Assembly: GCA_030740335.1 (NCBI GenBank)
Contig: JASLXL010000260.1
Coordinates: 1-10,412 of the forward strand
Direction of reading: 5' to 3'
Length of the DNA stretch: 10,412 nt
Origin: SAR202 cluster bacterium
GTDB lineage: Bacteria > Chloroflexota > Dehalococcoidia > SAR202 > CAJWER01
Shown here: one piece after another, positions 3,753 through 10,396 of the stretch
Numbering within the stretch: the first letter of the stretch is position 1
Layout: every line of letters starts with the position of its first letter
The notes under the pieces: generated by a model
What the model was told of the DNA's origin: nothing
The model's input: the letters and a program-made list of their open reading frames with translations, nothing else
Database searches by the model: none
Made by a program: the position numbers and the translations under genes

Positions 3753-4139
3753 ATGCCTAGAGAGCCAAGAACAAGAAGGCGGGTGCGGAAGAATGTTCCA
3801 GTAGGCCGCGCCTACATTCAGTCGACATTCAACAACACGGTGATAACGCTGACCGATCCGCAAGGCAACCCCATCGCATGGGGCAGCGCGGGTACGGTTG
3901 GATTCAAGGGATCCCGTAAGTCCACGGCTTTCGCGGCTCAGAGGGCAGCGGAGGCTGCCGCGCGGAAGGGTATGGATCAAGGCTTACGTCAGGTTGAGGT
4001 GTTCGTTAGGGGTCCTGGTGCCGGCAGAGAAGCCGCCATTCGCACCCTCGCGACATCTGGGATAATGATTACCACGATTCGCGATGTGACACCGACTCCT
4101 CACAATGGTTGCCGTCCACGCAATCGTCGGCGAGTGTAG
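3753..4139 (+). CDS. rpsK: 30S ribosomal protein S11 (uS11)
   Basis: S11 is on the 30S platform, lining the exit-site mRNA path with S7. The 128-residue product shows [18 protein letters not shown] (18-35), the platform core [14 protein letters not shown] and the classic C-terminus [17 protein letters not shown] chose the ATG at 3753 rather than the in-frame upstream codon at 3696, because [14 protein letters not shown] is the usual N-terminus and GAGGAGAG (3742-3749) lies immediately upstream as a ribosome site; the 19 extra residues of the longer frame look like untranslated leader. It is followed 11 bp later by a membrane-protein gene instead of the expected rpsD. Confidence 0.97.
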
Positions 4140-4150
4140 TAGGGCAGGAA

Positions 4151-4966
4151 GTGAAATATCGGTCGCAGACGCTCCTGCCACGCGGGTTGGGCGGACTGAT
4201 CGACGAGACATTCGCCATTTACGGGAGACATCTGCGTCGATGGCTGATTATCGCAGCGGTGATCTATTTGCCGGTGGGCCTGGTCTCGATCGGCCTTAGA
4301 CAGTTGGCTGGTGGGCCAGGGGTTGCGGTTTTTACGTATGTTTTGGAAGTGGCTGGTGCTGTGCTAGCTCTTAGCGCAGTCGCCTATGGGGTAGGACAGC
4401 ATTACGTCACAGGAGTGGTTGAGATACGAGAATGCTATGCGAGAGCACGGAGGATGATTCGGTCTCTGACACTTCTGTCGCTTGCGCCGGTGGCCGTATT
4501 GTTGGCGGTGGCGCTGCCCCTGAATTATGGGGGTGACGTTGTCGGAACGATTGTGGCAATGCTGTTGGCGCCGATCGCGATAGGTGCGGCGGTGTATTGG
4601 TCAATGGCGGTGCCAACGGTAGTAATTGAGGAACAAAGAGCACTGGGAGCGATGAAACGCGGATTTATACTGGTGCAAGGTAGTTGGTGGAGGGCTTTCG
4701 GGGTCGCGCTGGTACTGATGTTGGTCGTGCTGGGCATGGCTATCGTACTGACTCTCCCGGTGGGGATTACAGCGGCGCTTGCAGGAGGCAGCCTGGCATC
4801 TCGAACCACAGCGGTTCTGATAGGAATAGGTGACCTGGCGGCCATGGTCGTGGTTCTGCCAGTGCTGATGATAGCCTGGACACTTTTTTATAACGATCTT
4901 CGGGTGAGGAAAGAAAAATACGATGTCGCTGCGATGTCCAGGGAACTGGGAATAGCCGCGACCTGA
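4151..4966 (+). CDS. Polytopic membrane protein of unknown function, inserted between rpsK and rpsD
   Basis: I cannot assign a function. The 271-residue product has about six hydrophobic segments, near residues 31-49, 58-82, 106-124, 130-152, 182-207 and 218-246. It opens with a soluble stretch LPRGLGGLIDETFAIYGRH and ends with a charged tail (FYNDLRVRKEKYDVAAMSRE). The central VVIEEQRALGAMKRGFILVQ (157-176) followed by GSWWR resembles a loop I recall from the loose YciC-like / GDPD membrane-domain-like group of actinobacterial and Chloroflexota membrane proteins (pattern P-x-V-x-x-E-G-x-x-x-x-A-x-x-R-S-x-x-L); that assignment is from memory. No catalytic motif is evident. I prefer the GTG at 4151, preceded by AGGG and AGGA (4141-4149) and 11 bp after rpsK. 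A TTG at 4109 in the same frame would overlap rpsK by 31 bp. It ends 76 bp before the rpsD ATG. Base composition is not obviously foreign, so it looks settled in the operon. Confidence 0.85.
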   Translation: MKYRSQTLLPRGLGGLIDETFAIYGRHLRRWLIIAAVIYLPVGLVSIGLRQLAGGPGVAVFTYVLEVAGAVLALSAVAYGVGQHYVTGVVEIRECYARARRMIRSLTLLSLAPVAVLLAVALPLNYGGDVVGTIVAMLLAPIAIGAAVYWSMAVPTVVIEEQRALGAMKRGFILVQGSWWRAFGVALVLMLVVLGMAIVLTLPVGITAALAGGSLASRTTAVLIGIGDLAAMVVVLPVLMIAWTLFYNDLRVRKEKYDVAAMSRELGIAAT

Positions 4967-8392: not shown

Positions 8393-8791
8393 TTGGAGCA
8401 GCAACAGCACTACTATTATGGCACTGGTCGGCGCAAGACGTCGGTAGCCAGGGTCAGGATCTACACTGAGCAGGGCCCGATTATCGTCAACGGCAGGACG
8501 ATGGATGAGATGTTCGGCTGGCCTACGTGGCGCGAACACATCACCGAGCCATTTCGGGTCACAGACACGGAGGGCCAACTCCGCGTTATCGCCAAGGTGA
8601 GCGGTGGTGGGGTGGTTAGCCAGGCCGGTGCTCTCCGACACGGCATCTCCAGGGCGCTATTGGAACTCGACGCAAGTTTGAGGCCGCGCCTCAAGAAGGC
8701 GGGCCTTCTCACTCGCGACGCCAGGGAGAAGGAGAGTAAGAAGTACGGTCTGAAACGGGCTCGCAAGGCCCAGCAGTGGACCAAACGCTAG
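8393..8791 (+). CDS. rpsI: 30S ribosomal protein S9 (uS9)
   Basis: S9 sits in the 30S head; its C-terminal tail reaches the P-site tRNA. The 132-residue product shows YYYGTGRRKTSVARVRIYTE (7-26), the internal VSGGGVVSQAGALRHGISRA region and the conserved C-terminus KKYGLKRARKAQQWTKR ending in the P-site Lys-Arg. It begins with TTG at 8393, touching the rplM stop, with the strong Shine-Dalgarno GGAGGAGG (8380-8387) 5 bases upstream; no ATG or GTG fits the N-terminus, so TTG is well supported. It is the last gene of the operon, 21 bp before the terminator hairpin. Confidence 0.97.
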   Translation: MEQQQHYYYGTGRRKTSVARVRIYTEQGPIIVNGRTMDEMFGWPTWREHITEPFRVTDTEGQLRVIAKVSGGGVVSQAGALRHGISRALLELDASLRPRLKKAGLLTRDAREKESKKYGLKRARKAQQWTKR

Positions 8792-8812
8792 TTGTAGTTC
8801 GACATAGCCAGT

Positions 8813-8852
8813 AAAGCAAACGCCCCCCGATCACCGGGGGGCGTTTGCTTTT
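8813..8852 (+). terminator. Strong intrinsic terminator of the ribosomal-protein operon
   Basis: The left arm AAAGCAAACGCCCCCCG (8813-8829) pairs without mismatch to 8835-8851, a 17-bp stem with a 5-nt ATCAC loop, ending in TTTT (8849-8852). The T run is short but the stem is exceptionally GC-rich and long. It begins 21 bp after the rpsI stop and so closes the whole secY-to-rpsI unit. The leading AAA gives a short T run on the other strand too, so some termination from the cinA side is possible. Confidence 0.94.
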
Positions 8853-8932
8853 GTAGTGGTATCGGGCCTTCAATCCGGTGGAGCGACACAGTCCAATCGT
8901 GACCACAAAGTGTTGTTTTCCTTCTAGCGCGG

Positions 8933-8955
8933 TTGAATGGTGCACTGTGTATAAT
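8933..8955 (+). promoter_or_regulatory. Candidate promoter with a consensus -10 box
   Basis: TATAAT at 8950-8955 is a perfect -10 hexamer in an otherwise GC-balanced spacer, directly after a terminator. TTGAAT at 8933-8938 resembles a -35 box but is only 11 bp away, too short for a standard sigma-70 promoter, and no good hexamer occurs at 16-18 bp. TGTG precedes the -10, close to but not exactly an extended -10. The expected start point (8961-8963) coincides with the first paired base of the hairpin that follows, which adds support. Confidence 0.5.
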
Positions 8956-9003
8956 GCAAAGCAGGGACAAGCGGATGTGGAAGACAGCTTATGGTTGGTC
9001 CCT

Positions 9004-9014
9004 AGAAAGGAGGT
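9004..9014 (+). promoter_or_regulatory. Extreme Shine-Dalgarno sequence
   Basis: AGAAAGGAGGT is complementary over 11 bases to the 3' tail of 16S rRNA found in many bacteria (ACCUCCUUUCU). No other ribosome site in the window approaches this length. AGGAGG (9008-9013) is 2 bases from the ATG at 9016 and 8 bases from an in-frame TTG at 9022; the latter is the better spacing. The 16S of this organism is not in the window, so the match rests on the general consensus. Confidence 0.6.
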
Positions 9015-9015
9015 A

Positions 9016-9054
9016 ATGGCATTGGATAGTAGTACGTGGAGGTGTTTCCGGTAG
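9016..9054 (+). CDS. Possible micro-peptide ORF (10-12 residues)
   Basis: From ATG at 9016 the frame reads MALDSSTWRCFR then TAG (9052-9054); from the better-spaced TTG at 9022 it would be a 10-residue peptide, MDSSTWRCFR. The only reasons to consider it real are the very strong ribosome site just upstream and its position inside a promoter-to-terminator unit. The peptide includes Trp, Cys, Phe and two Arg near its end, and its stop overlaps the base of the next hairpin. That layout recalls attenuator leader peptides, but there is no gene behind it to attenuate. It might equally be a ribosome-binding sponge with an incidental frame. I know of no named family with this peptide. Confidence 0.35.
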   Translation: MALDSSTWRCFR

Positions 9055-9077
9055 ATGTTCCCTGGAGCATCTCTAAC

Positions 9078-9114
9078 AAGGGGCCTCGCTTCGGCGGGGC
9101 CCCTTTACTTTTTT
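9078..9114 (+). terminator. Intrinsic terminator with TTCG tetraloop
   Basis: AAGGGGCCTCGC (9078-9089) pairs with GCGGGGCCCCTT (9094-9105) with one T-G pair, closing a stable TTCG tetraloop. It is followed by TAC and six Ts (9109-9114), a textbook + strand terminator. Since the operon has already ended at 8852, it implies transcription starting between the two terminators. On the minus strand the same hairpin lies about 40 bases past the cinA stop and is followed by only TTGTT, so it may also serve cinA less efficiently. Confidence 0.93.
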
Positions 9115-9145
9115 CTGATGTTGGGCTCGTTCGTGGAATACCCGG

Positions 9146-10396
9146 CTATTCAAACCCCTCGGTCAGGGCCATTCGCAACAGATCCACTGCGTTGATGCTC
9201 ATTCGTGTCCTGTCCGGAATGCCGCGACTCGCACTCTCGTAGATTCTCGATTTGAAAGCATTGCCATCTGTGATGGTAATTACGGTGCGGCCCTTGCCCA
9301 GATTGATAGCGGTATCGTCCGGGTCCTGTACACCGTGCAGCGCCAGGCCTAGGTCGGTCCCAGCCTGAAGCCTGATTGCACGCGCGATTTCGGCGGTAAG
9401 AGGTCCAATATCGGAAATCAGGTCCTTCGACCTCTCTGGTGCGCTGGAGTGTGCTAACAGCCGTTGAATCGCTGTGATGTCGTTGCCGATGATTCCCGTG
9501 ACAACATGCTCGTGGCTGGCATCGAGCATGCGTCCCGTGACTAGCCCGCCCGTCAGATCCTCGTAGACCGCAATGGTCTTATTGGATCGACTCAGCAGTG
9601 AGCCTACCGTGTCCTCCATCGACTCCTCGTCGATCGCAAACACCCGTGAGCCCAGGAGCTCCCGTACCTCCGCTTCGACGGGCGCAATTAACTTTGCCGC
9701 TTCTGTCTCGTCGGACGCTTTGGCTGCAATCCGCACGTCCACCTGCCCTGGGTGTGCCAGGACCCCCACGGTGGGGTTGCTGGAGCCCGAAATCAGATGG
9801 CCGATCCGCTCGTCCACCGCGCTCTCGCCCATGTCCGCAACCTTCAGCACACGGTAGGTGATCACATCGGAGAGATCGAATCTTTTTTGTAGATACGGAA
9901 CCACCTCGTTGTCGAACAACCACTTCATCTCAAATGGGACACCCGGCAACGCGATGACGACTCCCCTCTCGTCCTCCACGACAAAGGAGGGCGCGGTGCC
10001 ATTAGGGTTGTGCACCGGGATCGCCCCTTCAGGTATGTAGGCCTGTCTCTCGTTGTTCTTTGTCATGATGAACCCGCGACTTCGAAACCGCCGCTCGATG
10101 TCAGACAGCAAATCTGGGTGTAACGACAGCTTACGGCCTGTCACCTCGGCGATGACATCCCTGGTGATGTCGTCCTGTGTGGGGCCGATTCCTCCGCCCG
10201 TGATGACAACGTCGGACCGGTCCAGCGCCTGAGCGATCGCGGCTCCCATGCGCTCGTGGTTATCCCCGACTATCGTCTTGTGGAACAGATTTACGCCGAC
10301 GCTTGTGAGCCGTTGGGCCATCCACGCGGCGTTCGTGTCCACAATCTGCCCCAAAAGCAGTTCCGACCCGATCGACACGATTTCGGCGTTGGCCAT
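9146..10396 (-). CDS. cinA: CinA-family protein with degenerate C-terminal deamidase domain
   Basis: CinA proteins usually join an N-terminal COG1058 domain, related to MoCF molybdopterin-binding folds and reported in some members to hydrolyse ADP-ribose and similar pyrophosphates, to a C-terminal PncC domain that deamidates nicotinamide mononucleotide. In this 416-residue protein the first domain looks intact: IGSELLLGQIVDTNAAW (9-25), TGGGIGPTQDDITRD (66-80), ERQAYIPEGA (116-125), NPNGTAPSF (130-138) and ALPGVPFEMKWLF (149-161). The C-terminal domain (about 260-416) aligns by order and length, but the usual AESCTGG signature reads YEDLTGG (278-284), with Asp280 and Leu281 where Ser and Cys are expected. 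The later TGIAGPGG loop reads HGVQDPDD (354-361). The deamidase is probably inactive. The start at 10396 has GGAG five bases upstream. It converges on the ribosomal operon; its own promoter is outside the window. Confidence 0.93.
   Translation of the reverse strand: MANAEIVSIGSELLLGQIVDTNAAWMAQRLTSVGVNLFHKTIVGDNHERMGAAIAQALDRSDVVITGGGIGPTQDDITRDVIAEVTGRKLSLHPDLLSDIERRFRSRGFIMTKNNERQAYIPEGAIPVHNPNGTAPSFVVEDERGVVIALPGVPFEMKWLFDNEVVPYLQKRFDLSDVITYRVLKVADMGESAVDERIGHLISGSSNPTVGVLAHPGQVDVRIAAKASDETEAAKLIAPVEAEVRELLGSRVFAIDEESMEDTVGSLLSRSNKTIAVYEDLTGGLVTGRMLDASHEHVVTGIIGNDITAIQRLLAHSSAPERSKDLISDIGPLTAEIARAIRLQAGTDLGLALHGVQDPDDTAINLGKGRTVITITDGNAFKSRIYESASRGIPDRTRMSINAVDLLRMALTEGFE

Follow-up and report, generated by a model that had tools for sequence, protein, structure and literature searches.

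The window analysed here, a stretch of 10,412 bp from a SAR202 cluster bacterium, contains a ribosomal-protein gene cluster followed by a convergent cinA gene. From their translations we take the genes of the cluster to be secY, adk, map, infA, those for ribosomal proteins S13, S11 and S4, rpoA, the L17 gene, truA, and the L13 and S9 genes; the identities of S9 and CinA were confirmed by Pfam. A 285-codon hydrophobic frame at 4109-4966, between the S11 and S4 genes, looks like an unusual operon insertion. The S9 gene is followed by a near-perfect terminator hairpin (8811-8851), which appears on both strands in the terminator scan and could work both ways. Between this terminator and cinA, at 8950-9115 of the forward strand, lies a compact unit comprising, in this order, a promoter, a 5' hairpin, a maximal Shine-Dalgarno sequence, a minute reading frame, a second hairpin and a terminator. 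An earlier note, made from the letters of the window, had described a self-contained small transcription unit here, and its TATAAT, hairpin, 11-nt Shine-Dalgarno sequence, frame, second hairpin and terminator were all recovered at the places it gave.

The -10 element, TATAAT, occupies 8950-8955 (forward strand, as are all features of the unit). A script placed this element in 50 of the 51 core sequences defined below, the window included, as TATAAT in 49 and TACAAT in one; the promoter scan of the window listed no sigma-70 match at the unit. The predicted transcript (8963-9112), about 150 nt long, would start with hairpin 1 at its first base and end in the T tract of the terminator, as judged from the -10 element and the terminator. 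The intrinsic terminator (9078-9115), identified by the terminator scan, consists of a stem at 9078-9105 and a T tract. By our own rule a terminator is predicted within 95 nt after the second hairpin (helix A) in 55 of 63 distinct sequences. Five of the remaining eight are divergent-type members with a long GC hairpin lacking a T tract, in two (L035 and L068) the stem is followed by a weak T tract, and one (L019) has no terminator. The terminator stem lies apart from the helices described below and is not conserved in the sequence comparison.

The Shine-Dalgarno sequence of the unit, SD1 (AGAAAGGAGGU, 9004-9014), was compared with the 3' tail of 16S rRNA as read from the genomes of relatives. 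A 16S rRNA gene was found in nine of the ten carrier genomes searched, and all nine end in ...GGAUCACCUCCUUUCU, so that SD1 is complementary to the whole tail; the complementarity claimed earlier for this 11-nt stretch is thus exact in nine relatives. The pairing energy of SD1 with the tail is -17.6 kcal/mol, compared with -2.0 to -13.8 kcal/mol for 12 other start regions in the window, representing 11 genes with two candidate starts for S11; these starts were picked mechanically and may not all be right, and the cinA start was left unscored at the window end. Only three of 6928 sampled 21-mers, a sample that includes the SD1 site itself, pair as strongly. The AAGGAGG portion was invariant in the first 18 sequences, and the last G of SD1 is lost in L067, L069, L091 and L153. 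Pairing of the RNA with 16S rRNA outside the tail was also considered and set aside, since the energy of a long duplex says little when both RNAs are folded.

By itself the window stands out only mildly: its 154-nt fold has a z-score of -1.74 against shuffled sequences, and 13 of the 200 are at least as stable. A blastn search with 8930-9115 gave matches in 17 of 98 relatives, and the alignment of these revealed the same elements in the same order. A covariance model (R1) built from the window and those 17 genomes matched 66 of 250 genomes of the order at E ≤ 0.01, and 63 after the removal of chance matches in G053, G084 and G199; one extra match in G073 was likewise removed, and G179 was accepted among the 63 without reading its match. 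According to the table of matches, these 63 genomes span 20 families. A second model (R2), run on part of the 250 genomes, added four more (G029, G086, G145 and G181), which gives accepted members in 67 of the 250 genomes of the order. The other 183 have no accepted member, so either cells can do without the function or the RNA has in many cases diverged beyond the reach of the search. There is normally one copy per genome; in G090 two pieces (L051 and L053), each at a contig end, were taken as one copy probably split by the assembly.

Outside the order, two further families of the class carry members. In the class, R2 matched 19 of 294 genomes, of which 12 were accepted, including L091 from another family. 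A full-length model, R3, matched 15 of 393 at E ≤ 0.05, with 11 accepted; it found L153, from yet another family, at E 1.5e-7, a sequence that is in no model's training set. A search of the phylum matched 3 of 251 genomes, and the sole new match (L095) was not accepted. A more permissive search of 40 genomes, 38 of them without an earlier match, yielded seven matches, namely the known L085 and six that were not accepted, and added none. Weak model matches that were not accepted on reading are L061-L064, L086-L088, L090, L092-L095, L154-L156, L159 and L160-L164, among which L087 and L090 are unclear rather than clearly due to chance. A pattern scan of named genomes found 37 stretches, all 37 in SAR202, Dehalococcoidia or Chloroflexi, and the same strict pattern had no match in viral contigs. 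On this evidence, the RNA belongs to Dehalococcoidia; parts of one order carry it commonly, and its occurrence elsewhere is patchy.

In Rfam 15 no family matches the window at or above its gathering score, and the 17 matches of the spacer 8790-9150 at E up to 10 all fall below their gathering scores. A search of open-licence PMC literature found no report of such an RNA. The unit thus represents an RNA family without an Rfam 15 match and without a report found in that literature.

The genomic setting was compared at 60 loci, the window and 59 others with near-duplicates included, by mechanically picking the nearest ORF of at least 85 aa on each side and naming one representative per group by Pfam. 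The upstream neighbour is a glyoxalase-type gene at 31 loci, and downstream there is a phosphotriesterase gene at 24 and cinA at 11. The nearest downstream ORF lies on the opposite strand at 48 of the 60 loci; a same-strand NUDIX-type gene follows at six, all of the divergent type. Upstream genes of the S9 type are confined to two loci, the window and its nearest relative. The suggestion that the RNA is tied to ribosome supply through its S9 neighbour was therefore dropped, because the neighbours differ among loci. The unit is autonomous, and the recurrence of certain neighbours indicates that it is inherited rather than mobile.

Conservation in relatives is the reason to regard the unit as real and not a product of chance, the signal in the window alone being modest. 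Helix A, the Shine-Dalgarno sequence and the frame are kept in relatives, as is hairpin 1 in the core, and there is strong support for a self-contained transcription unit. We conclude that it is almost certainly a real, conserved, stand-alone RNA gene. That it might be a chance arrangement, or a mobile or repeat element, could be argued from the fact that single elements of this kind are common and from the folding z-score of -1.74; this we consider extremely improbable given the covariation, the conserved element order, the normally single copy, the recurrent neighbours across families and the lack of any strict-pattern hit in viral contigs. A role as a stand-in for a missing housekeeping RNA was also considered and set aside. 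The tmRNA model (RF00023) has no match in the window, and a separate tmRNA scores over the cut-off in nine of ten carriers; the 6S model (RF00013) has no match in the window and none in any of the ten carriers, as judged by a model that hits only five of 14 controls.

In total, 102 member loci were collected, corresponding to 63 distinct sequences: 51 core sequences, 11 of a divergent type confined to one family, and L091. L153 stands outside the 63 and is counted as a further case. Two selection effects bear on counts over the 63: weak matches were rejected partly for lacking a Shine-Dalgarno sequence, frame or terminator, which favours a score of 63 of 63, and the 37 pattern-scan loci were found with a pattern fixing UUG and UAG, only two of the 63 coming from them alone. 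In the divergent type (L054-L060, L083-L085 and L089), which comes from one family of the order, the loop is longer and often contains palindromes after the stop codon, such as GGCGCC or GGGUACCC, and the core hairpin 1 is lacking. Its kinship with the core rests largely on architecture, because R1 matches it weakly (E 8e-5 to 2e-3) and several of its carriers (G086, G124, G145 and G188) escape the full-length model R3.

Hairpin 1 spans 8963-9003, with arms 8963-8968 (AGGGAC) and 8998-9003 (GUCCCU). Its main helix of five pairs is formed in 97.0% of cells in 20 sequences, and an added sixth pair is poorer (72.2%). The arm sequences vary widely between members, and double changes occur in three of the five pairs. 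The loop contains a conserved GAHAGYYU-like motif (GACAGCUU at 8983-8990 in the window). Neither hairpin 1 nor its loop motif was seen in the divergent type.

The second hairpin is formed by helix A (9040-9072), in which 9040-9051 pairs with 9061-9072 around a 9-nt loop (9052-9060) whose first triplet is the stop codon of the frame. Across 53 distinct sequences pairing holds in 90.7% of the cells, and it falls to 36-52% when the partner is shifted by 1-3 columns. Four of five covariation measures were reached by none of 500 shuffles; the fifth, the number of pairs with double changes (9 of 12), was reached by 164 of 500 and is no better than chance. In the first alignment, of 17 distinct sequences, pairing was likewise 90.7%, and seven pairs showed double changes, a number reached by 9 of 500 shuffles. 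The 53-sequence alignment was fitted to the R1 structure, and the 17- and 20-sequence alignments were unfitted, yet the structure was drawn from the same sequences. Given this strong covariation, helix A can be regarded as established.

The loop sequence AGGUGUUC begins inside the stop codon and nearly copies the start of the helix A 5' arm, so that it can pair with the same 3' arm. This alternative pairing, helix B (9053-9072; 9053-9060 with 9065-9072), corresponds to the hairpin given earlier as 9054-9071, which therefore exists but is the weaker fold, the stable one being helix A. Helix A is more stable than helix B in all 51 core sequences (mean -18.9 against -9.0 kcal/mol), the difference averaging about 10 kcal/mol. 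In the shared-arm columns 5-7 of the core, 45 cells lack the helix A pair and every one of them has the helix B pair, while helix A alone is formed in two cells; in column 8, helix A alone is formed in 13 cells and helix B alone in none. In the window, its nearest relative and L052, the loop has changes that match those of the 3' arm, and the 5' arm keeps G-U pairs. In 20 sequences helix B is paired in 96.9% of cells, against 38-64% when slid; compensatory change is almost absent, however, with a double change at one pair and 92 of 500 shuffles doing as well. Helix B is broken in L037 and L041 and was not seen by eye in the divergent type. Thus, of the two helices that compete for the arm, A is strongly supported, whereas B is compatible with nearly all core sequences and has little covariation of its own. 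With the 5' arm covered by a ribosome, helix B would be a plausible alternative state, and we give its importance an even chance.

In several relatives, the 3' part of this hairpin (GGUAGGUGUUCCCUGGAACACCUCC; 9053-9075 in the window) looks like the 3' end of 16S rRNA (GGAAGGUGCGGCUGGAUCACCUCC), and other members have lost the likeness. Mimicry of the 16S 3' end by the 3' arm (CUGGA.CACCUCC in several members) was considered as a function and rejected, as members such as L049, L052 and L078-L080 no longer show the likeness although their helix is intact.

The mini-ORF at 9022-9054 reads UUG GAU AGU AGU ACG UGG AGG UGU UUC CGG UAG and would encode fMet-DSSTWRCFR. A frame of 9-12 codons, starting shortly after its own Shine-Dalgarno sequence and ending at the top of the second hairpin, is present in all 63 distinct sequences, as would be expected of a minigene. 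In the 51 core sequences the start is always UUG and the stop is UAG in 50 and UAA in one, and the frame has ten codons in 46, 11 in four and nine in one; since a frame by definition consists of whole codons, these length changes by three bases are informative only because the core offers two independent sequence anchors, UUG and the UAGGUGUUC loop. The 11 divergent-type sequences use UUG (seven), AUG (three) or GUG (one) as the start and UAG (five), UAA (four) or UGA (two) as the stop, and L091 and L153 have an AUG start and a UAA stop, the latter with ten codons. For 17 divergent members, such a frame arises in an average of 6.2% of shuffled intervals, a figure that serves as a guide and not as a probability, since the members are related and hand-chosen and the stop position was taken as observed. 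The interchange of start and stop codons in fixed places supports translation, and the frame is very probably translated.

Other starts and frames were considered. An AUG at 9016 lies 2 nt from SD1, and the start common to relatives is the UUG at 9022; L028 and L065 have a further possible GUG upstream, and UUG was taken there too. A second frame opening from an RUG after the stop codon (AUG in the window; in the core GUG in 48 and AUG in three of 51) varies from 3 to 138 codons in length and is not conserved.

If the frame is translated, its product could be a functional micropeptide of about ten residues with the core consensus fM-D-S-S-S-R-R-C-S-R. The maximal Shine-Dalgarno sequence, the conserved frame, synonymous-type changes (GAU/GAC and AGU/AGC) and an R-C-S stretch common to many core members and to L091 and L153 all fit such a gene. 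However, members vary from MDSSSRRCSR-like peptides, typical of the core, to MFNYLRGCNR, MKHSSTRCIF, MDINYKRGVLI, MYSCLTGGVLL and MSFELPGGALAF, and the synonymous-only change in 9022-9054 that the earlier note had proposed to test for is not found. Moreover, the 5'-arm RNA GAGGUGUYC is kept in both types and is read in different frames, and in the 46 ten-codon core sequences the serines of codons 3-4 are always encoded by AGY and never by UCN, which suggests an RNA-level constraint in part of the frame. Of the micropeptide proposed earlier, translation of the frame has gained support and conservation of the peptide has not, and a functional peptide is improbable. With the peptide varying, the 5'-arm RNA kept and serine restricted to AGY, what is conserved appears to be the act of translating to the stop codon, together with the RNA structure.

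An internal Shine-Dalgarno-like 8-mer, GGAGGUGU (9038-9045), recognised by its pairing energy with the 16S tail, lies 6 nt before the stop codon of the window. An 8-mer of this kind, 6-10 nt before the stop codon and pairing at -8 kcal/mol or better, is found in all 63 distinct sequences, compared with 24% of composition shuffles, and in the divergent type it is read in another frame. It may be a by-product of the conserved lower stem.

The RNA could also act as a decoy that occupies the anti-Shine-Dalgarno sequence of 30S subunits with no need for elongation. Binding of 30S subunits, one of the options raised in the earlier note, is plausible because SD1 complements the whole 16S tail, and the UUG start in all 51 core sequences could slow initiation. 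An open frame with a placed stop codon in all 63 sequences would be superfluous for a decoy, and a single-copy gene would hardly suffice for titration unless its expression were very high. We accordingly consider the decoy very improbable.

A leader-like frame, two helices that would exclude each other and a terminator are also the parts of a leader-peptide attenuator acting in cis, whose target gene would have been lost or would be reached through the terminator, and the same-strand NUDIX-type gene downstream of the divergent type at six of 60 loci would suit this reading. An attenuator should precede a regulated gene on its own strand, whereas at 48 of 60 loci the nearest ORF on that side runs on the opposite strand. 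The terminator has a stem of its own, which is not conserved, and no antiterminator was seen by eye. We therefore judge attenuation to be improbable as well.

A trans-acting small regulatory RNA that pairs with mRNAs, stabilised or tuned by translation of the mini-frame, deserves more weight. The unit has a predicted promoter and terminator of its own, as such an RNA should, and keeps them at varied loci. Pairing might involve the hairpin 1 loop, the UUGGAUAGUAGUA stretch or the CACCUCC-like 3' arm; the core has conserved unpaired stretches in hairpin 1 and at the start of the frame, and the 3' arm is complementary to Shine-Dalgarno sequences. Yet the frame is kept in members without the unpaired stretches (L052, L054-L060 and L068), and the divergent type does not have the hairpin 1 motif. 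On balance such a regulator seems unlikely, though worth keeping in mind.

The explanation that we find best, and hold tentatively at somewhat below an even chance, is a translated minigene that reports or holds a ribosome through its fold. The unit would produce a free-standing mini-mRNA of about 150 nt, on which the Shine-Dalgarno sequence complementary to the entire 16S tail would load a 30S subunit, and about ten codons would be translated. As the 5' arm of helix A is the second half of the frame, the ribosome would have to open helix A on its way to the stop codon. Once that codon is in the A site, the internal Shine-Dalgarno sequence (GGAGGUG) would lie at about the normal distance from a Shine-Dalgarno sequence to the P site, so the ribosome would probably be slowed or held there; the placement is observed, and the holding would follow from what is generally known of Shine-Dalgarno spacing. 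While the 5' arm is covered, the 3' arm could refold with the loop as helix B. Sharing of the arm would thus give the RNA two states in the cell, ribosome-free (helix A) and ribosome-occupied (helix B or open). It might serve as a detector or holder of free ribosomes, with a signal given through the exposed or hidden 3' arm or through the stability of the RNA itself.

Ribosome sensing or holding as the function of the translated minigene is possible, though we would not call it probable. A bolder formulation, about which we are more doubtful, is that these RNAs constitute a class with two Shine-Dalgarno sequences, one to load the ribosome and one to hold it at the stop codon; a ribosome halted at a fixed position would be their sole conserved product, and the hairpin would read ribosome occupancy. 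SAR202 bacteria are described in passages of a recent publication as prominent in the dark ocean and only recently brought into culture (PMC10444878). If the occupancy reading is true, slow-growing ocean bacteria would have a dedicated gauge or parking place for free ribosomes. It would then offer a compact natural system for studying how cells measure spare translation capacity, and a test of what a Shine-Dalgarno sequence just before a stop codon does to termination. On our reading, what the relatives have kept is a translation event, neither a peptide nor a plain structure, which places the unit between coding and noncoding genes and makes it easily missed by finders of either.

Several known systems share some of these features. 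In the trp and ilv leader-peptide attenuators a short frame covers one arm of alternative hairpins and a terminator lies downstream. The SAR202 unit resembles them in the overlap of a short frame with a hairpin arm and in the terminator just downstream; unlike them, it has a downstream neighbour on the opposite strand at 48 of 60 loci, no run of regulatory codons conserved across types, and a terminator that is not seen to take part in the switch. Dual-function small RNAs such as RyhB/RyhP and SgrS also are small RNA genes with an internal short ORF, but in the SAR202 RNA the ORF is in the middle and its stop codon is tied to a hairpin. In prfB an internal Shine-Dalgarno sequence within the coding sequence is placed against a stop codon, as it is here; in contrast to prfB, no frameshift product is expected, the following RUG frame not being conserved.

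The bar minigenes are very short ORFs with their own Shine-Dalgarno sequence, and the unit shares with them, and with the axe-txe minigene mg2, a minute ORF and a strong Shine-Dalgarno sequence. In its passages on minigenes, one publication reports that a strong Shine-Dalgarno sequence favours re-initiation without release, that long occupancy stabilises the RNA, and that minigene toxicity falls with length; mg2, of two codons, acts there in cis as part of an operon leader (PMC8708949). These reports are a partial precedent for the mechanism proposed here. The SAR202 unit differs from mg2 in being free-standing, in its 9-12 codons and in the covarying hairpin at the end of the frame. Finally, the yfr6 downstream-peptide motif is described as a structured RNA beside a short ORF in marine bacteria, the ORF having been recognised from synonymous changes (Weinberg 2010, PMC2864571), and the SAR202 unit is likewise a structured RNA near a short ORF in marine bacteria. 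As far as the relevant passages of that source describe it, yfr6 is cyanobacterial, with ORFs of 17-100 residues and the structure in the 5' UTR, whereas the SAR202 unit encloses a frame of about ten codons within the structure itself.
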